64,000 bases of DNA from Sphingomonas aerophila (lineage in GTDB: Bacteria > Pseudomonadota > Alphaproteobacteria > Sphingomonadales > Sphingomonadaceae), in assembly GCF_014199305.1 (NCBI RefSeq), contig NZ_JACIJK010000005.1:62001-126000 (forward strand), written 5' to 3'. The translations under genes were made by a program, and so were the position numbers. Positions 55,321-64,000 of the stretch are shown here, piece after piece. The stretch's first letter is position 1. Each line of letters opens with the position of its first letter. The notes beneath the pieces were generated by a model. That model saw nothing but the letters and a program-made list of their open reading frames with translations, was not told the DNA's origin and searched no databases.

Positions 55321-57150
55321 TCAGTCGGTGTCGAACAACGCCGCCAGTTGCTCGATGATCGTGCCGCCCAGTTGCTCGGCATCCATGATCGTCACCGCTC
55401 GGGAGTAATAGCGGGTCACGTCATGCCCGATGCCGATCGCGACCAGCTCGACCGGCGATCGCCCTTCGATCCAGCCGATCACCTGACGCAAGTGCCGCTC
55501 CAGATAGCTTCCCGAGTTCACGCTCAGCGTCGAATCGTCCACCGGCGCACCGTCGGAGATCACCATCAGTATGCGCCGCTCCTCGGGCCGCGCCATCAGG
55601 CGGCTGTGCGCCCACAACAGCGCCTCGCCGTCGATATTCTCCTTCAGCAGCCCTTCGCGCATCATCAGGCCAAGCGCGTTGCGCGCCCGCCGCCACGGCT
55701 CGTCCGCCTTTTTGTAGACGATGTGCCGCAGGTCGTTGAGGCGCCCCGGCTGGGGCGGCCGCCCCGCGGCAAGCCACGTTTCACGCGACTGCCCGCCCTT
55801 CCACGCGCGGGTCGTGAAGCCCAGGATCTCCGTCTTTACCCCGCACCGCTCCAGCGTGCGCGCGAGGATGTCGGCGCTGATCGCGGCGATGGAGATCGGC
55901 CGCCCGCGCATGGAGCCCGAATTGTCGATCAACAGCGTTACGACCGTGTCGCGGAACTCGGTATCGCGCTCGACCTTGTACGACAGCGACTGACCCGGAG
56001 ATACGACCACGCGGGCCAGCCGCGCCGCGTCCAGCAGCCCTTCTTCCTGGTCAAAGTCCCAGGACCGGTTCTGTTGCGCCATCAGTCGCCGCTGCAATCG
56101 GTTGGCGAGCTTCGACACCGCCGATTGCAGGTGCACCAGCTGCTGGTCCAGATAGCCGCGCAGTCGCGCCAACTCATCCGCATCGGTCAGCTCGTCGGCG
56201 GCGATCACCTCGTCAAACTGGTTGGTCCATGCCTTGTAGTCGAACTGCGGCGCCAGGTCGTGGCTCGGCCGGTTGGGGCGGACCGGCTGCGCGCCCTCGT
56301 CGCCGTCGTCACCCGGCTCGCCCTCCATCTCGTCAACGCCATCGTCGCTGGCCTGTTGTTCCTCGCCCTCGCCCTCGTCGCTGTCGGATTGCTGTTGTTC
56401 GCCGCGCTGCTCGACCTCGCCCTGGCCCTCACCGCCCTGCTCGTCGCCTTCCTCGGTCTCGCTTTCTTCCGAGGAGTTCTCAGCCGAGTCCTCCTCGCCG
56501 CCTTCGTCCGCGTCGCTCGGCTCGATCTCGCCCTCGACCAGTTCCAGGTCGGCAAGCATCTTCATCGCCAGCCCCTGGAACGCGCGCTGGTCATCCAGCG
56601 CCAGCGCCAGACTGGCAAGGTCGGTGCGGCCCGCAATCCATTCACGCGTCAGGGCCAGCGCGGGCTGCGCTGCGGCCGGGGCTTCCTGCCCGGTCAGCGC
56701 CTCGCGCACCAACAGCGCCAGCGCGGTCGACAGCGGCACTTCCTCACGCGATCGGGCGCGGGTGATCGGGTCGGACCGCAGCCGCACGTCCAGCGCATGG
56801 GTCAGGTTGTCGGAAATGCCCTGATAGCCGCGGCTGCCCAGTGCCTCGACCCGCGCGCCCTCCACCGCATCGAACACCGACCGCGCCACCGCCTCGTCGG
56901 GCGCGCCGCGTGCATGAAGCCCGGCGTCGTGATGGCGCAGCCGCAGGGCGAAGCCATCGGCAAAGCCGCGCGCTTCCGCCACCTGTTCCAGCGGCAGCCC
57001 GCGCGCGGGCATCGGCACCTTGAAGTGCTTGCCCGACTGGGTTGGCGCATCCGCGGTGAACGCCAATTCCACCTCCGCCTCGTCGGCCAGCGCGCGCGCG
57101 GTGCCGGCGAGAACGGCCTTGAACCGATCGAGGGGAGTTTCCGTGGCCAT
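55321..57150 (-). CDS. cobT: Cobaltochelatase subunit CobT
   Basis: A 609-residue partner of CobN and CobS in ATP-driven cobalt insertion into hydrogenobyrinic diamide (aerobic cobalamin route). N-terminal helical region, a long acidic low-complexity centre (EE/DD/SE-rich, about 225-300), then a VWA domain with MIDAS motif DNSGSM near residue 406. ATG 57150 overlaps the toxin stop by one base, giving translational coupling. CobN is not in the window. Confidence 0.93.
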
Positions 57151-57539
57151 TACCAAAGCACCTTGCAGCCTAAACCCGCGAACTCGGGGTCGCGGGTCAC
57201 CACGACCAGACCCTCGCACCGCGCCTGGCCAGCGATCAGCCGGTCAAACGGGTCACGATGCGGGCTGTCCAGATACGCCGCTTCCAGGGCGTGTTGATCG
57301 GACACGTTGATCAGGTCGAACCCGTTGTCTGCCATCAAGCCGGAATATTCGGCGCGAAAGGCAGGCAGTTCCGGAAGGCGGCCAGCGTGAGACTTGATTG
57401 CAATCTCCCATATGCTCGCCACACTGACACAGATGCGCTCGGCTCCTTCCCCGATCAGTCGCCGGGCCGCTGCGCCAAGCTTGGGACTGTCCACCCACCA
57501 CCAGAGCGCTGCGTGCGTGTCGAGCAAATAGCCTGTCAC
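57150..57539 (-). CDS. VapC-like PIN-domain toxin
   Basis: A 129-residue PIN-domain ribonuclease. Acidic metal-binding residues D7 ([10 protein letters not shown]), E45 (SIWEIAIK), D96 and D99 ([11 protein letters not shown]) are all present. It should cleave RNA when not bound by the antitoxin. GTG start at 57539 overlaps the antitoxin stop (GTGA), and its own stop overlaps the cobT ATG by one base. A toxin coupled to cobT is unusual. Confidence 0.85.
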
Positions 57540-57817
57540 AATCCGTGCTTCTCCAGCCGCTTGCCTTCCCACATCTCGAGCTCGTCATCCGGTAAGGGAT
57601 CGAACCAGACCGAATCGGGTATTTCGCCCAGCACCGTCAGGCCACCCGGCGTTCGCTTGCGCTTGGCCACGGGCTCGATTGGCACCAGCTTGGCATAGGG
57701 CACGCCTGCCTTCGCCACGATGATCTCTTCCCCCGCATGGGCGCGGTCGACCAAGCGCGAAAACTGAGTTTTCGCTTCATGCACGTTGAACGTCTTTTGC
57801 GGGTCGGCCTCGGCCAT
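57536..57817 (-). CDS. Phd/YefM-like antitoxin
   Basis: A 93-residue antitoxin with an N-terminal Phd fold (FNVHEAKTQFSRLVDRAHAGEEIIVAKAGVPYAKLVPI) and a C-terminal toxin-binding segment ending PDSVWFDPLPDDELEMWEG, typical of partners of PIN toxins. ATG 57817 has GGAGG upstream. It probably represses its promoter via the inverted repeat at 57833-57855. Confidence 0.88.
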   Translation of the reverse strand: MAEADPQKTFNVHEAKTQFSRLVDRAHAGEEIIVAKAGVPYAKLVPIEPVAKRKRTPGGLTVLGEIPDSVWFDPLPDDELEMWEGKRLEKHGL

Positions 57818-57832
57818 CGCTCGCCTCCTCGT

Positions 57833-57855
57833 GTGGACTAAGTGGCTTAGTCCAC
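57833..57855 (-). promoter_or_regulatory. Perfect inverted repeat upstream of the antitoxin
   Basis: GTGGACTAAG-TGG-CTTAGTCCAC, a perfect 10-bp dyad with a three-base centre, lies 16 bases before the antitoxin start and 21 bases after the cobS stop. Phd-type antitoxins bind palindromes at their promoters, so an autoregulatory operator is likely. It lacks a T-tract, making a terminator role less likely. Confidence 0.6.
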
Positions 57856-57875
57856 CCCGATCTTCAAGCCCGCGC

Positions 57876-58880
57876 CTACGCCTTGCTGGCAACGCTCTCG
57901 GGCAGGTCCTTGCCGAACACGCGCTGATAATATTCCGCCACCAGCGGCCGCTCCGCTTCGTCGCACTTGTTCAGGAACGACAGGCGGAACGCAAAGCCGA
58001 CATCGCCGAAGATCAGCGTGTTCTGCGCCCAGGTGATCACCGTGCGCGGGCTCATGACGGTGGAGATGTCGCCGTTGATGAAGCCCTTGCGCGTCAGGTC
58101 GGCGACCCGAACCATGTTTTCCACCTGCTTCTTGCCGTCGGGCTTGTCATATTCGCCCGACTTGGCGAGCACGATCTGCGCCTCGGTCGCGGCAGGCAGG
58201 TAGTTCAGTGTCACCACGATATTCCAGCGGTCCATCTGGCCCTGGTTGATCTGCTGCGTGCCATGATACAGCCCGCTGGTATCGCCCAGGCCGACCGTGT
58301 TGGCCGTCGCGAACAGCCGGAAATACGGGTTCGGGCGGATCACGCGATTCTGGTCAAGCAGGGTCAGCTTGCCCTCCGTTTCCAGCACGCGCTGGATCAC
58401 GAACATGACGTCCGGGCGGCCTGCGTCATATTCATCAAAGACGAGCGCGGTCGGTGTCTGCAGCGCCCAGGGGAGCAGCCCTTCGCGGAACTCGGTCACC
58501 TGCTGCCCGTCCCGCAGCACGATCGCATCGCGCCCGACCAGGTCGATGCGGCTGATATGCGCGTCCAGGTTGATGCGGATGCACGGCCATTTCAGCCGCG
58601 CCGCGACCTGTTCGATATGTGTCGACTTGCCGGTGCCGTGATAGCCTTGCACCATCACGCGGCGGTTGTGGGCAAAGCCCGCCAGTACCGCCAGCGTCGT
58701 GTCCGGGTCGAACACATAAGCGGGGTCGCTGTCGGGCACCCTCTCGTCCGCCTCGCTGAACGCGGGCACTTCCATGTCGATGTCGATGCCGAACACATCG
58801 CGCACGGACACGGTCTTGTCGGGAGCGGCGAGCAGAGTCGTCTCGCGGCTGTCGGGCTGGCTATTGGACAGGTCGGTCAT
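57876..58880 (-). CDS. cobS: Cobaltochelatase subunit CobS
   Basis: A 334-residue AAA+ ATPase of cobaltochelatase. Walker [10 protein letters not shown] (79-87), Walker [14 protein letters not shown], and sensor block [19 protein letters not shown]. With CobT and CobN it inserts Co2+. Length fits (~330). No cobalamin riboswitch is visible near it. It lies between the toxin-antitoxin pair (downstream) and the HxlR gene. Confidence 0.94.
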
Positions 58881-58942
58881 GGTTCGCTTTCGGGATACGC
58901 TAACGCCTTAAAGCAGGGGTCGGGCGCAACTCAAGACGCGCG

Positions 58943-59626
58943 TCAGGCGATCTTCTCCGGCAGGCGGAACAGGTCAATGAATTGACCTGCCACATGGGGA
59001 TCGCCGGTGGCCGACAACAGCCCCTCCCCGTTCACCCCCGCCTTGCCATAGATGGTGCGCCGCATGGCCATGGTGTCGCCGGCAAAGGTCACGTCGGCCG
59101 CGTCGACGTCCCCGCGCACAACGCTCATTTCGCCACGTTCCAGCCGCACGATGAAGCTGTCGTCGGGAAATCGGAACGCAACCGTCGCTTCAATTTTGTT
59201 CAGAGCGGAATGATCGACCAGGGTCAGCAGCGACTGCATGGCCGAAGCGGTAGACATAAAGGCAAGCGGATCGTGCCGCTTCGATCGCGCAGCCCAGCGA
59301 CCCATCACCTGGATGATCGGCTCCGCCTCCTGCCCCCACCGCGTCAGTTCATAGACCTGGACGTTGGCGGGGGAGGACAGCTTGCGCCGCATCAGGATTC
59401 CCGCGGCCTCCATGCTGTCCAGCCGCTGGGTCAGGATGTTGGCGCTGATGCCCGGAAGGTTCGCCTTGATCTCTCCAAACCGCCTGGGGCCGTACATCAG
59501 TTCGCGCAGGATCAGCAGCGACCAGCGCTCACCCAGAAACTCCAATGCAAGCGCGGTGCCGCACGCATCGTCGTACCAGCGTTTGGGGGCGGGCGATTTA
59601 CCCTCGGTCACTTTTTCTAACTTCAT
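58943..59626 (-). CDS. HxlR-family regulator with SCP2-like C-terminal domain
   Basis: A 227-residue regulator. The winged helix (LEFLGERWSLLILRELMYGPRRFGEI, then ISANILTQRLDSMEAAGIL) fits HxlR, and Cys22 (YDDACGTALAL) occupies the conserved N-terminal position used for redox/electrophile sensing in YodB and HypR. The last ~100 residues (FIVRLERGEMSVVRGDVDAADVTFAG) look like an SCP2-type sterol-carrier domain, an extension seen in some HxlR proteins. Divergent from a seven-gene detoxification operon, which it likely controls. Confidence 0.85.
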   Translation of the reverse strand: MKLEKVTEGKSPAPKRWYDDACGTALALEFLGERWSLLILRELMYGPRRFGEIKANLPGISANILTQRLDSMEAAGILMRRKLSSPANVQVYELTRWGQEAEPIIQVMGRWAARSKRHDPLAFMSTASAMQSLLTLVDHSALNKIEATVAFRFPDDSFIVRLERGEMSVVRGDVDAADVTFAGDTMAMRRTIYGKAGVNGEGLLSATGDPHVAGQFIDLFRLPEKIA

Positions 59627-59650
59627 CGTTGTTTTTCTTAACTGCGCGAG

Positions 59651-59661
59651 GCATCCCATGC
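59651..59661. promoter_or_regulatory. Short dyad in the divergent HxlR/VOC promoter
   Basis: GCATCCCATGC lies in the 65-base gap between the HxlR gene and the first VOC gene, flanked by ACTG and CAGT. Candidate binding site of the regulator; the element is short and could be chance. Confidence 0.3.
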
Positions 59662-59691
59662 AAACAGTGAGTCGGGGAGGAAAGTTGCACC

Positions 59692-60138
59692 ATGCAAAAG
59701 GCTATCTTCATCAACCTGCCGGTTAGCGACGTCGCACGATCAACCGCGTTCTATGAAGCACTGGGGTTTGAGAAGAACCCATCCTTCTCCAACGAGCACG
59801 GTTCGGGGATGGTCTGGTCCGACAGCATCAACGTCATGCTGCTCGATAGGGCATTCTACTCGACCTTCACGCCCAAGAAGATCATCGACGCACACACCGA
59901 AACCCAGGCGCTGTTCGCCCTGTCCTTTGACGACCGCACTGCCGTCGACGCCATCACCCAGGCGGCGATCGCCGCCGGCGGGCGCGAGGCGCATGAGGCG
60001 GAGGATCAGGGCTTCATGTACAGCCGCGCCTTTGAGGATCTGGACGGCCATGGCTGGGGGCCGTTCTGCATGGATGTTGCCGCCTTTGTCGCCCCACAGC
60101 CGGACCAGGCAGGGCGGGCCGAACAGGCCGCGGCATGA
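59692..60138 (+). CDS. VOC-family (glyoxalase/bleomycin-resistance fold) protein
   Basis: A 148-residue VOC protein beginning MQKAIFINLPVSDVARSTAFYEALGF, with the N-terminal beta-alpha-beta-beta-beta unit and a second half ending GFMYSRAFEDLDGHGWGPFCMD. No Met/His metal set can be assigned with certainty. First gene of the HxlR-controlled operon, with GGGGAGG upstream. It may act on aldehydes or electrophilic metabolites. Confidence 0.82.
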   Translation: MQKAIFINLPVSDVARSTAFYEALGFEKNPSFSNEHGSGMVWSDSINVMLLDRAFYSTFTPKKIIDAHTETQALFALSFDDRTAVDAITQAAIAAGGREAHEAEDQGFMYSRAFEDLDGHGWGPFCMDVAAFVAPQPDQAGRAEQAAA

Positions 60139-60803
60139 GCGCCACCACCAGCGCCGCCCCCGTTATCACAGCGCTGCGCTGGGTTCCGCCCGGCGCCCGC
60201 GGGCTGGTCCGGGACCTGCGCGCGCGCTGGGCCTTTGAAGAAGTCGGCCAGCCTTATCGCACCCACCTGCTCGAGCTGACGGAGATCAAGCAGCCGCCGC
60301 ACCGGGCGCGCCAGCCCTTTGGCCAGGTGCCGACGCTGGACGATGGAGAGGTAGCGATGTTCGAATCGGGCGCCATCGTGCTGCACCTTGCGCGCCGTTA
60401 CCCGGGCCTGCTGCCGGCCGACCCGGCGGGCGAGGCACGCGCGATCGAATGGTTGTTCGCGGCGCTGAGTTCGGTTGAGCCCTGGATCTACTCTGTCCAG
60501 CTCGCCGCCTTGTTCGAACGCGACCAGCCCTGGTCTGCCGAGCGCCTGCCCCATGCGCTGGCCCAGCTCGACGCCCGCCTGGCGGACCTGGCGGCGGCGC
60601 TTGGTGATGGACCGTGGCTCGACGGCGACAGCTTCACCGCGGGCGATCTGATGATGGTCGCCGTGCTGCGCCAGGTGTCACGCATCGGCGCGCTAAACCG
60701 ACATCCAACCCTTGCCGCCTATGTCGCCCGTGGAGAGGCGCGCCCCGCCTTCGCTCGCGCACTCGCGGCCCAGATGGAAGACTTCGAACAACGCGCGGCT
60801 TGA
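60135..60803 (+). CDS. Glutathione S-transferase family protein
   Basis: A 222-residue GST: thioredoxin-like N-domain with the FGQVPTLDDGE and MFESGAIVLHLARR motifs, then the all-helical C-domain with GDSFTAGDLMMVAVL. The catalytic Tyr/Ser of the classic classes is not evident at the usual N-terminal place. ATGA overlap with the VOC gene shows coupling. Conjugates or reduces electrophiles with glutathione. Confidence 0.87.
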   Translation: MSATTSAAPVITALRWVPPGARGLVRDLRARWAFEEVGQPYRTHLLELTEIKQPPHRARQPFGQVPTLDDGEVAMFESGAIVLHLARRYPGLLPADPAGEARAIEWLFAALSSVEPWIYSVQLAALFERDQPWSAERLPHALAQLDARLADLAAALGDGPWLDGDSFTAGDLMMVAVLRQVSRIGALNRHPTLAAYVARGEARPAFARALAAQMEDFEQRAA

Positions 60804-60826
60804 CCCGCGCAACAGGAGAGGCCGGC

Positions 60827-61180
60827 ATGACCTATATCAGCGGTTTCGTGACGCCCGTGCGCCCCGAACGACGCGACGATTTCGTTGCCAGCGCGCAAGC
60901 GTCCTGGCTGTTGTTCCAGGAATATGGCGCAATCGAGCAGGTCGAGGCCTGGGGCGAGGATGTTCCCACCGGAAAGCAGACCGACTTCCACCGCGCTGTC
61001 GCCCTGCAGGAGGGCGAGGTGGTCGTGTTCAGCTGGGTAACGTGGCGGGACAAGGCGGCGGCCGACGCCTGTGGCGCGGCGATGCAGACGGATCCGCGCT
61101 TTGCCGCGCTCGACATGCCGTTTGACGGCAGCCGCATGATCTATGGCGGCTTCACGCCCGTGTTCGAACAACGTCGCTGA
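60827..61180 (+). CDS. DUF1428 protein
   Basis: A 117-residue dimeric alpha/beta-barrel (ferredoxin-like) protein of the DUF1428 (YbaA) family: MTYISGFVTPVRPERRDDF, EYGAIEQVEAWGEDVPTGK, FSWVTWRDKAAAD and FDGSRMIYGGFTPV. AGGAG-type ribosome site upstream. Function unknown; its place among GST and VOC genes suggests a stress role. Confidence 0.85.
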   Translation: MTYISGFVTPVRPERRDDFVASAQASWLLFQEYGAIEQVEAWGEDVPTGKQTDFHRAVALQEGEVVVFSWVTWRDKAAADACGAAMQTDPRFAALDMPFDGSRMIYGGFTPVFEQRR

Positions 61181-61190
61181 GGAGTTGATC

Positions 61191-61979
61191 ATGGCAGACC
61201 CAACCGGCACGCCCATCTGGTTCGAGCTCAACACGCCTGACCCCGCCGCTGCGCAAGAGTTCTACGCCGCCGTGATGGACTGGCGCTTCACCGCTTCGAC
61301 CGTCCCCGAACATAACGGCTATCGCATGGGCGGCCCGGCAGAGGACCGGCCCGTTGCCGGCCTGATGAGCTTCCCCGATGGCGGTGGCGTCTCGGGCTGG
61401 CTCGTTTATTTCAGCGTGCCCGACGTGGACGCGATGGGGGAGGAGATCGCCCGTCTCGGCGGCGCGGTGCGGTTCGGGCCGATGGACATCCCCCATGTCG
61501 GCCGCTTCGCCGTCTGCACCGACCCGCAGAACAACCGCTTCACCATCATGAGCAGCCTTAATCCGGACACCCCGTCCGTCTTTGCCGGCGGCGGAAACGG
61601 AAGCTCGATCGGCCACCCGGTGTGGATCGAACTCGCAACCCCCGATCCCGACGGCGCCTTCGCCTCTTACGGCGCGCTGTTCGACTGGCGCAAACAAGGC
61701 GCGATGCCGATGGGGGAAATGGGCGAGTACGCCTTCATCGGCCATGAAGGGAAACCCTCGATCGGCGCCATCATGTCCAGCGCGGCCACCGGCGCGCCCG
61801 CACGGTGGAACTGGTACACCCATGTCCGCGACATCGACGCCGCGATCGCCACTGCGACCGATCAGGGCGGGAAGCTGATCCAAGGACCCGACCAGATCCC
61901 GGGCGGCGACTATTCCGCCAACATCGTCGATCCCGCCGGTTATCAGGTCGGCCTTGTCGGACCGCGGGCTGCGGAGTGA
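61191..61979 (+). CDS. Two-domain VOC protein (CFP-30/27-like)
   Basis: A 262-residue protein with two VOC modules: the first with IWFELNTPDPAAAQEFYAAVMDW, the second with VWIELATPDPDGAFASYGALFDW and NIVDPAGYQVGLVGP. The repeats arise from internal duplication. Proteins like this are linked to hydroxylase or antibiotic-tolerance functions, without a clear substrate. ATG 61191 with GAGGAG. Confidence 0.85.
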   Translation: MADPTGTPIWFELNTPDPAAAQEFYAAVMDWRFTASTVPEHNGYRMGGPAEDRPVAGLMSFPDGGGVSGWLVYFSVPDVDAMGEEIARLGGAVRFGPMDIPHVGRFAVCTDPQNNRFTIMSSLNPDTPSVFAGGGNGSSIGHPVWIELATPDPDGAFASYGALFDWRKQGAMPMGEMGEYAFIGHEGKPSIGAIMSSAATGAPARWNWYTHVRDIDAAIATATDQGGKLIQGPDQIPGGDYSANIVDPAGYQVGLVGPRAAE

Positions 61980-62470
61980 GCGAGCCTGCCATGCGTACCT
62001 GCCTCTGGTTCGACCATGGGCAGGCCCGTCCCGCTGCGGAGTTTTACGCCAGCGTCTTTCCGGACACGTATGTCGAGCAGAGCTTTGATGCACCCATCGA
62101 TTATCCGAGCGGCCAGGCGGGGGACCAGTTGACCGTCGAATTCACGCTGCTCGGCCAGCCCTTTCTCGGCCTTAATGGCGGCGACGCCTTTCGCCCGAAT
62201 GGCTCCGTCAGCTTCCAGGTCTATACCGACACACAGGAACAGACCGACCGGTACTGGGATGCGATTGTCGGCGGCGGCGGCGCGGAGAACGCATGCGGCT
62301 GGTGCTTCGACCGCTGGGGTCATGCCTGGCAGATCACGCCGCGCGCGTTGATGAAGGGCATGACCAACCCCGACAGCGCAGCCGCCGCCCGCGTAATGAC
62401 CGCAATGCTGACCATGCGAAAGATCGACATTGCCGCCATTGAGCGCGCCGCCGCCGGAGAGAGCGCATGA
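61976..62470 (+). CDS. PhnB-like VOC protein
   Basis: A 164-residue VOC protein of the PhnB/3-demethylubiquinone-like group: TCLWFDHGQARPAAEFYASVFPD, FTLLGQPFLGLNGGDAF, and CGWCFDRWGHAWQITP, with the typical (G)xxWQI(V/T)P end. Start at GTG 61976 overlaps the upstream stop (GTGA); ATG 61991 is a shorter alternative. Function unassigned. Confidence 0.82.
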   Translation: MSEPAMRTCLWFDHGQARPAAEFYASVFPDTYVEQSFDAPIDYPSGQAGDQLTVEFTLLGQPFLGLNGGDAFRPNGSVSFQVYTDTQEQTDRYWDAIVGGGGAENACGWCFDRWGHAWQITPRALMKGMTNPDSAAAARVMTAMLTMRKIDIAAIERAAAGESA

Positions 62471-62928
62471 CCGACACCCCCCACGAACTCACGATCTCCC
62501 GCTTGATGCGGGCGCCCCGCGCCGCCGTATGGCAAGCCTTTACCGATCACCAGGCTGACTGGTGGTGTCCCAAGCCCTGGACCGCCGAAATCCATGTGCG
62601 GGAACTGCGCCCCGGCGGCCGGGCCGAGATGACCATGCGCGGCCCGAACGGGGAGGTGTTCCCCAACAATGGCGTGTACCTCGACGTCGTACCGGCCGAG
62701 CGGGTCGTGTTCACCGACGCCTTCACCGCCGACTGGCAGCCCGCGGGCCCGTTCATGGTCGGGATCATGGAGTTCGCCGACGAGGATGGCGGCACCCGCT
62801 ACACCGGCCGCGCCCGCCACTGGACGCCCGAGGCCGCAGAAAAGCATCGCGCGATGGGATTCGAGCAAGGCTGGGGCAAGGTCGCCGAGCAGTGGGAGGA
62901 GGTCGCGCGGCGCATCGCGGGCGCATGA
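62467..62928 (+). CDS. SRPBCC/AHSA1-type protein
   Basis: A 153-residue START-like (AHSA1/SRPBCC) protein: ELTISRLMRAPRAAVWQAFTDHQ, DWWCPKPWTAEIHVRELRPGG and the end block HRAMGFEQGWGKVAEQWEEV. The fold makes a hydrophobic ligand cavity. ATGA overlaps both neighbouring genes, a typical coupled order. Confidence 0.86.
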   Translation: MTDTPHELTISRLMRAPRAAVWQAFTDHQADWWCPKPWTAEIHVRELRPGGRAEMTMRGPNGEVFPNNGVYLDVVPAERVVFTDAFTADWQPAGPFMVGIMEFADEDGGTRYTGRARHWTPEAAEKHRAMGFEQGWGKVAEQWEEVARRIAGA

Positions 62929-63554
62929 CGCTGCAGCTCTTCGCGCACCCGTTCTCCAGCTATTGCTGGAAAGTGATGATCGCCCTACACGAGAACGCGA
63001 CCCCGTTTGACCTGCGCCGGCTTGGCCCCGACCAGCCTGCGAACGACGCCGACTGGACCAGGCTATGGCCGTTGCGGCGGATGCCGGTCTTGGTCGACGG
63101 CAGGCGCACCGTGATCGAGACAGACGCGATCCTGGAATCTCTCGACCGCCACTATCCGGGCCCGGTGTCACTGTTTCCCGACCAGGACGATCTGGCGGTG
63201 GAGGCGCGCATGCTCGCCAGCATCGCCGACGATTTCGTGATGCGGCCGATGAACGTCATCGTCGCCGACGCGCTACGCCCGGCCGAGCACCGCGACCGCT
63301 ATGGCGTGGATCGTGCGCGCGAACGGCTGTCCGCCATCTACGCCTGGGCCGTGGGCGATCGGTTCACCCATGCGGACTGCGCAGCGGCCCCCGCACTGTT
63401 CTATGCGGATTGGGCCCACCCGATCGACCCGGCACACGCCACGCTGACCGCCTATCGCGCGCGCCTGCTCGCCCGTCCCTGCATCGCGCGGTGCGTCGAG
63501 GATGCCCGCCCTTACCGACCCTTCTTTCCTCTGGGTGCACCAGACCGGGATTAG
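62925..63554 (+). CDS. Glutathione S-transferase-like protein (second GST)
   Basis: A 209-residue GST: N-domain MTLQLFAHPFSSYCWKVMIALHENATPFDL with SSYCWKV (Ser/Tyr/Cys in the active-site position), RRMPVLVDGRRTVIETDAI, then the helical domain with GDRFTHADCAAAPALFYADW. ATGA overlap with the SRPBCC gene. Ends the operon, 10 bases from the convergent J-domain gene stop. Confidence 0.86.
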   Translation: MTLQLFAHPFSSYCWKVMIALHENATPFDLRRLGPDQPANDADWTRLWPLRRMPVLVDGRRTVIETDAILESLDRHYPGPVSLFPDQDDLAVEARMLASIADDFVMRPMNVIVADALRPAEHRDRYGVDRARERLSAIYAWAVGDRFTHADCAAAPALFYADWAHPIDPAHATLTAYRARLLARPCIARCVEDARPYRPFFPLGAPDRD

Positions 63555-63564
63555 GGAGCTGCAA

Positions 63565-64000
63565 TCAGGCGAAGACCGGCGCGCCTTTCAACTGTTGATA
63601 GGCGTCGATCACCTTTTGCAGCTTGCCTTCCTGGCTGCGGTCACCGCCGTTCCGGTCCGGGTGATACCGCCGCACCAGCTCCGAATAACGCCGGCGCAAC
63701 TGCGTGCGGTCCGCCGTCGGCTCAAGCCCCAATGTTTTCAGCGATTCCCTGTCCTGCCCCGACAGCGGCTTGCCGTCAGGTCGCTCGGGCGCACGCTCAC
63801 GACGATAGCGCGCGGCGATCGCGTCGAGCGGGTCGGAGAAATCGGACCAGCGCGGGCCAGGGTCGCGGCCCGAAAAGGCGCGTGTTTCCCGCTCCCACCC
63901 GGCCGTCGGCCGCTGGGCGGCATGGATCTCGTCCACGCTCATGCCTTCGAAGAAATTGTAGCGGCTGTTGAAGGCACGGACATGGTCCAGGCACATCCAG
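63565..64000 (-). CDS. J-domain (DnaJ-like) protein, N-terminus outside the window
   Basis: The C-terminal 145 residues of a J-domain protein. The N-terminal part (WMCLDHVRAFNSRYNFFEGMS) continues past base 64000, so the true start is not seen. The J domain at the C-terminus contains the HPD tripeptide (VRRYHPDRNGGD). In many alphaproteobacteria this gene stands next to cobS/cobT; here a separate cassette intervenes. Co-chaperone role for Hsp70 is inferred from the HPD motif. Confidence 0.85.
   Translation of the reverse strand, partial: WMCLDHVRAFNSRYNFFEGMSVDEIHAAQRPTAGWERETRAFSGRDPGPRWSDFSDPLDAIAARYRRERAPERPDGKPLSGQDRESLKTLGLEPTADRTQLRRRYSELVRRYHPDRNGGDRSQEGKLQKVIDAYQQLKGAPVFA

Follow-up and report, generated by a model that had tools for sequence, protein, structure and literature searches.

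In the window analysed here, a 64,000-nucleotide stretch of the 4.0 Mb genome of Sphingomonas aerophila (contig NZ_JACIJK010000005.1, positions 62,001 to 126,000), a regulator of the HxlR/DUF24 family stands between cobS and a J-domain gene and is divergent from a cassette of seven genes. Sequence comparison across relatives shows that the regulator and a tandem operator on its start codon form a conserved head, that the divergent genes are lost, doubled and reordered behind it, and that the site of the head, both in the genus and in many further genera of Sphingomonadaceae, is flanked by cobS and the J-domain gene. The cassette is ancestral at this site and is not an insertion. Its changeable payload comprises VOC, DUF1428, PhnB-like VOC, glutathione S-transferase (GST) and SRPBCC genes, joined in other species by RibD_C reductase, DUF899 and DoxX genes. 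The head, the payload and the flanking anchors are as follows.

59607 to 59642, plus strand: tandem operator in the HxlR-to-cassette gap, made up of two GTTR-N7-TAAC-like boxes at a spacing of 21 bp
59607 to 59621: operator box A, GTCACTTTTTCTAAC, covering HxlR codons 2 to 7 directly after the ATG
59628 to 59642: operator box B, GTTGTTTTTCTTAAC, upstream of the HxlR start
58943 to 59626, minus strand: HxlR/DUF24 regulator, 227 amino acids, single Cys22 (Pfam PF01638, sub-threshold PF14864, AlphaFold model, structure matches)
59692 to 60138, plus strand: VOC1, glyoxalase/bleomycin-resistance-like (PF00903; nearest solved structure 4gym)
60135 to 60803, plus strand: GST1, class-eta-like (nearest solved structure 2ycd/3lq7; catalytic Arg34 position kept as R26)
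60827 to 61180, plus strand: DUF1428 protein (PF07237, 122.5 bits; nearest solved structure E. coli YbaA, 2okq)
61191 to 61979, plus strand: two-domain VOC, VOC2d (PF00903; nearest solved structure Rv0577, 3oxh; sub-threshold to the KbpA family)
61976 to 62470, plus strand: PhnB-like VOC (PF06983, 131.6 bits; nearest solved structure 1u69; invariant Cys107 in a CGWC motif)
62467 to 62928, plus strand: SRPBCC/AHSA1 protein (PF08327, 87.5 bits; nearest solved structure 1xfs)
62925 to 63554, plus strand: GST2 (SSYCWK motif), the least constant cassette member
57876 to 58880, minus strand: cobS, left anchor (TIGR01650, 601.7 bits, cut-off 558.55), on the strand of HxlR and 62 bp downstream of it
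63565 to 63999, minus strand: J-domain protein, right anchor (PF00226), extending to the window edge

Open reading frame (ORF) and profile scans place eight ORFs at the positions and in the families given by an initial annotation of this DNA, and bear out its description of an HxlR gene divergent from a seven-gene, operon-like unit of detoxification-type proteins. Its remark that the genes are mostly joined by ATGA or GTGA overlaps also stands, as four of the six cassette junctions (-4, +23, +10, -4, -4 and -4) overlap by 4 bp. The N-terminal cysteine that it singled out is indeed Cys22 when the regulator is read from its conserved start, the minus-strand ATG at 59626-59624 that gives 227 amino acids; the longest ORF (238 amino acids) begins at 59659.

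The tandem operator and its distribution

The gap between HxlR and the cassette was compared for 52 of the 63 HxlR loci of the genus, and over 83 loci the operator follows the consensus GTtactTTTTcTaACTtCAt|.GTTGctTTt..TAAct, in which the bar marks the HxlR start. At HxlR codon 3, 56 of these 83 loci have TTA, compared with 41 TTA among 9194 leucine codons from codon 11 onward in matched interval genes, and this excess points to selection on the DNA rather than on the protein. At the threshold of at most three mismatches, used below unless stated otherwise, the tandem pattern matches once in the window and never in 100 shuffles. It is found nowhere else in the window genome, so that a wider regulon is not seen there at this threshold, and the reversed control gives no match in the 4.0 Mb.

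The pattern occurs exactly once in each of 78 of the 121 genomes of the genus sample, with no match in the controls. In 74 of the 78 the operator is no further than 2.5 kb from cobS, on the HxlR side of that gene, with a median distance of 745 bp. The order sample gives matches in 63 of 296 genomes and 21 of 79 genera, again with none in the controls; none of the matches among the 296 genomes falls outside the family of the window. In the class sample, a regulator search (E ≤ 1e-40, scoring no more than 10 candidates in each genome) and an operator search select the same five of 289 genomes. Two belong to this genus and three to one genus of another family, and in those three the operator again lies at the start of the regulator. 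Operator and regulator also coincide among the intervals between the J-domain gene and cobS in the genus, where the operator is present in 54 of the 63 HxlR-bearing and in none of the 26 HxlR-less intervals. With up to four mismatches it is found in 76 of the best 80 named loci. Taking these sequence comparisons together, we regard the anatomy of the locus, the operator and its conservation as nearly certain, and we infer that the regulator would control the neighbouring genes through this operator.

From the best 80 named loci we chose 22 outside the family, fetching 4.3 to 20.7 kb for each; they include Methylobacterium, Microvirga, Roseomonas, Brucella pituitosa and a Lysobacteraceae genome. 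All 22 carry the operator at no more than four mismatches, and neither cobS nor the J-domain gene is present in any of the fetched stretches. In tblastn searches with the window proteins (E ≤ 1e-6, a setting that misses diverged partners), VOC1 or VOC2d is present in 21 of the 22 and a GST in only two. VOC proteins are thus the usual partner of the head, which shifts the interpretation away from a core role for glutathione. The glutathione-linked detoxification suggested by the initial annotation is only partly supported: of the HxlR-bearing intervals of the genus, 48 of 63 hold GST1 and 15 of 63 GST2, and the loci of other families seldom show a matching GST. In Methylobacterium gnaphalii (L193), VOC2d is followed by ORFs that by eye resemble SRPBCC, RibD_C and VOC proteins. 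One record titled Microvirga sp. SRT01 (L206) has cobT, cobS, HxlR, VOC1 and DUF1428 arranged as in sphingomonads, with cobS 94% identical; it is possibly mislabelled.

The cobS/J-domain site

The initial annotation had read the cassette as an insertion interrupting genes that are usually adjacent, and synteny shows the opposite. A J-domain match is present in 117 and cobS in 119 of the 121 genus genomes; in 89 of the 117, cobS shares the contig at a distance of no more than 20 kb (86 colinear), the other 28 were left out, and all 89 intervals were compared with the window proteins. In 63 of the 89, HxlR is accompanied by three or more of the other seven families. By family, the intervals contain HxlR in 63, VOC1 in 60, GST1 in 48, DUF1428 in 62, VOC2d in 66, the PhnB-like protein in 53, SRPBCC in 38 and GST2 in 15. 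None of the eight families is found in 16 of the 89, and 10 of the 26 HxlR-less intervals retain between one and three genes as remnants, in most cases VOC2d or DUF1428. Cassette genes oppose the HxlR strand in 372 of 373 cases, and HxlR and cobS share a strand in 62 of 63 loci, with a gap of at most 120 bp in 45 of the 62.

On a midpoint-rooted tree built from cobS and the J-domain gene only, the presence of HxlR requires 10 changes, compared with a shuffled mean of 22.9 and a lowest shuffled value of 19. The Fitch root state is 'present' and the losses are clustered; one most-parsimonious history comprises nine losses and one gain. Two reduced cassettes (L047 and L072) group with eight empty intervals in a single clade with support of 0.958. 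Outside the genus, we took one operator-bearing locus for each of the 20 other genera matched in the order sample (20 of 44 such matches). All 20 hold at least two payload families; within the fetched stretch cobS is seen in 13, the J-domain gene in 12 and the two together in 11. From the genus intervals, the parsimony analysis and the other-genus loci we conclude that this is the home site of the cassette, and that losses from it have been numerous. A recent insertion between cobS and the J-domain gene would be compatible with the cassette-free intervals of 97 to 284 bp at 14 of the 89 near pairs, with the variable gene content and with the occurrence of the same module at other sites outside the family. 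Set against the HxlR-bearing majority at the site, the other genera, the ancestral root state and the clade in which reduced and empty intervals lie together, it is hardly credible, and we reject it: conservation of the cassette at this place across the family, which the initial annotation had named as the outcome that would contradict insertion, is largely what is found.

The L047 and L072 cassettes appear to be decaying, with GST1 fragments and SRPBCC frames that, as called here, contain stops. Between HxlR and cobS, the hxlR message may read through 58881-58942 into cobS, given the shared strand and the short gap. The stretch at 59660-59674 (GCAAACAGTGAGTCG; many relatives have the similar CAAACAGYGATTCGC), between the operator and the first cassette gene, is conserved by eye and is possibly a promoter or leader. 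Within 58700-59800 no sigma-70 promoter was found, and the single terminator-like site there is at chance level. At 57150-57892, cobS and cobT are separated by a Phd/YefM antitoxin paired with a PIN toxin, and the same pair is found between these genes in four named loci (L180, L203, L209 and L253). An anti-phage system was considered and ruled out, as a PADLOC scan matched none of the eight proteins to an anti-phage family.

The regulator and its payload proteins

The regulator carries an HxlR winged-helix domain (PF01638, 78.1 bits, cut-off 20.8). Its AlphaFold model has a mean predicted local distance difference test score (pLDDT) of 90.5, with residues 1-12 below 50. The N-terminal half of the model matches HypR (4a5n, Z 12.9), YodB (5hs7, Z 12.3) and B. 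subtilis HxlR (7bzg, Z 12.7). Residues from about 109 to 224 match the C-terminus of the Pisa1 alkylsulfatase (2yhe; Z 12.3, root-mean-square deviation 2.1, 105 aligned residues). The same region weakly matches UbiJ-SCP2 (Foldseek E 8.4e-4), and the Pfam PF14864 profile scores 23.6, below its cut-off of 27. The predicted C-terminal domain is therefore SCP2-like in fold.

Cys22 is present in all 83 regulator orthologues and is the sole cysteine both of the 227-residue window protein and of 68 of the 83; two positions further on, 73 of them have Thr and none has Lys. The N-terminal cysteine is also conserved in the wider HxlR/DUF24 family, as stated in PMC7835342, which also reports that formaldehyde sensing by B. 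subtilis HxlR needs a Cys-x-Lys motif for a methylene bridge. Given the absence of that lysine from all 83 orthologues, we reject a Cys-Lys bridge of this type. In a HypR-type switch a second cysteine forms an intersubunit disulfide, and such a cysteine is absent from the window protein and from 68 of the 83 orthologues. A single cysteine next to a domain of hydrophobic type suggests that sensing works not by a two-Cys disulfide but by S-alkylation, by a mixed disulfide or by the binding of a ligand.

Among the payload proteins, GST1 is closest to the class eta enzyme AtuGSTH1-1 of Agrobacterium (2ycd/3lq7, E 8.5e-61). PMC3319563 describes this enzyme as a transferase for aryl halides with high peroxidase activity on organic hydroperoxides, and its Arg34Ala mutant as inactive. 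The corresponding arginine of GST1 (R26) is found in all 50 ungapped rows. The Ser25 position is Val17 in the window protein and Val in 47 of 51 rows, and the Phe22 position is Leu14 in the window protein and Phe in 40 of 51 rows; because Leu14 and Val17 replace Phe22 and Ser25, we call GST1 class-eta-like and not a member of the class. VOC2d matches 3oxh (E 2e-31) and scores 90.2 bits with the KbpA model, well under its cut-off of 250 bits. VOC1 has Phe (F6) in 62 of 62 rows at what may be the position of the first-strand His of metal-dependent VOC enzymes. The CGWC motif of the PhnB-like protein keeps Cys107 in 53 of 53 and Cys110 in 51 of 53 rows, and SRPBCC Cys34 is conserved in 34 of 36; redox or thiol chemistry is possible for both. 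Stop-bearing frames (five DUF1428, one VOC2d and two SRPBCC) were left out of these alignments. Accessory genes in other relatives code for RibD_C (17 loci), DUF899 (13) and DoxX-like (9) proteins.

Proposed function and relation to known systems

Based on these comparisons, we tentatively propose, at a little under an even chance, that a one-cysteine, hydrophobic-pocket HxlR repressor governs a modular cassette directed against hydrophobic electrophiles or organic hydroperoxides. Two HxlR dimers would occupy the two boxes as neighbours, the 21-bp spacing being about two helix turns, and would repress hxlR and the cassette together. A hydrophobic reactive compound, held in the SCP2-like pocket, bonded to Cys22, or both, would free the dimers. 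The small VOC, SRPBCC and DUF1428 proteins might thereupon act on hydrophobic electrophiles by binding or converting them; conjugation of these compounds, or reduction of organic hydroperoxides, might fall to the class-eta-like GST. The more specific idea of a dual-input repressor, in which a reactive cysteine and a lipid-type SCP2 pocket act on a fixed operator in front of an exchangeable payload, is in our view unlikely. With the head mostly locked before cobS in Sphingomonadaceae, cobalamin synthesis could, on this idea, answer to the same stress signal as well.

Several findings weigh against the proposed function. The repressor sign is assumed, and PMC7835342 describes B. subtilis HxlR as an activator of transcription with formaldehyde. 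The locus of Microvirga puerhi contains, by eye, only HxlR and VOC1 followed by a seemingly unrelated 1500-residue ORF, which would make most of the 'detoxification' genes optional. The operator is missing from 9 of the 63 HxlR-bearing intervals at up to three mismatches and from four at up to five, and the reversed pattern also matches two other genomes in the class sample. A single box, scanned at no more than one mismatch, is not significant in the window genome: its two matches are boxes A and B, and the reversed control also gives two, so that weaker operator sites cannot be judged. Lastly, HxlR distances track those of cobS poorly (Mantel 0.135, with 0.337 for the J-domain control and 0.05 to 0.38 for the cassette genes), HxlR being lowest against cobS, and exchange of the regulator between lineages is thus possible; since even the control pair shows little congruence, this comparison decides neither for nor against vertical descent.

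Three other functions can be weighed against the same evidence. The cassette might confer resistance to, or modify, one class of natural products or aromatics, with the SCP2-like domain rather than Cys22 as the sensor. The small ligand-binding folds of the three VOC proteins and SRPBCC would suit this role (VOC proteins can bind in the bleomycin manner), as would the payload outside the family, mostly VOC1 or VOC2d (21 of 22), and the phenylalanine of VOC1 where a metal-binding histidine may be expected. The invariance of Cys22 in 83 of 83 orthologues speaks against it, though less so given the conservation of this cysteine in the wider family noted above, and the payload is too varied for a single ligand; we consider this function less probable, although a serious candidate.

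A response to formaldehyde or methylglyoxal like that of B. subtilis HxlR, with the VOC proteins as glyoxalases, would draw on the presence of VOC genes and on the structural match to 7bzg, yet the lysine of the required Cys-x-Lys bridge is replaced, usually by threonine, and no formaldehyde pathway family appears among the scanned cassette proteins, which makes such a response very improbable. Somewhat less remote, but still improbable, is an unknown catabolic operon that does not serve stress, tied to cobalamin synthesis by read-through from HxlR into cobS. The shared strand and short gap of HxlR and cobS favour it, but the scanned cassette proteins include no transporter or obvious catabolic enzyme, and cobS is missing from the fetched stretches of all 22 non-family loci.

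Should the dual-input idea be correct, the regulator would be a sensor for hydrophobic electrophiles of a kind that we have not found described for HxlR proteins in the literature. The locus also offers a handle on DUF1428, DUF899, PhnB-like VOC and AHSA1-type SRPBCC proteins, families without an assigned role that occur together here. The operator allows a regulon search in any genome, and a one-cysteine, one-pocket sensor would make the inducer accessible to a simple reporter.

Among the papers listed in searches of the open-access literature, no title or abstract describes this gene set, in agreement with the initial annotation, which knew no named pathway containing it. With the HxlR/DUF24 proteins YodB, HypR and B. 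subtilis HxlR the regulator shares the winged-helix fold and the N-terminal cysteine; from the aligned ranges, Cys22 corresponds to Cys11 of B. subtilis HxlR, provided that no gap precedes it. It differs from these proteins in its predicted additional SCP2-like C-terminal domain and in a tandem operator placed on its own start codon. Unlike HypR, it usually has one cysteine and so no two-Cys switch, and unlike B. subtilis HxlR it has no lysine two residues after the cysteine. GST1 shares the catalytic Arg34 of AtuGSTH1-1 (PMC3319563), its nearest solved structure, and has Val and Leu where that enzyme has Ser25 and Phe22. VOC2d is two-domain like the Rv0577-like and KbpA-like proteins, but falls far under the KbpA cut-off. 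The SCP2-like domains of the alkylsulfatase C-terminus and UbiJ have the fold predicted for the C-terminus of the regulator, which, unlike them, carries its copy fused to a DNA-binding domain.

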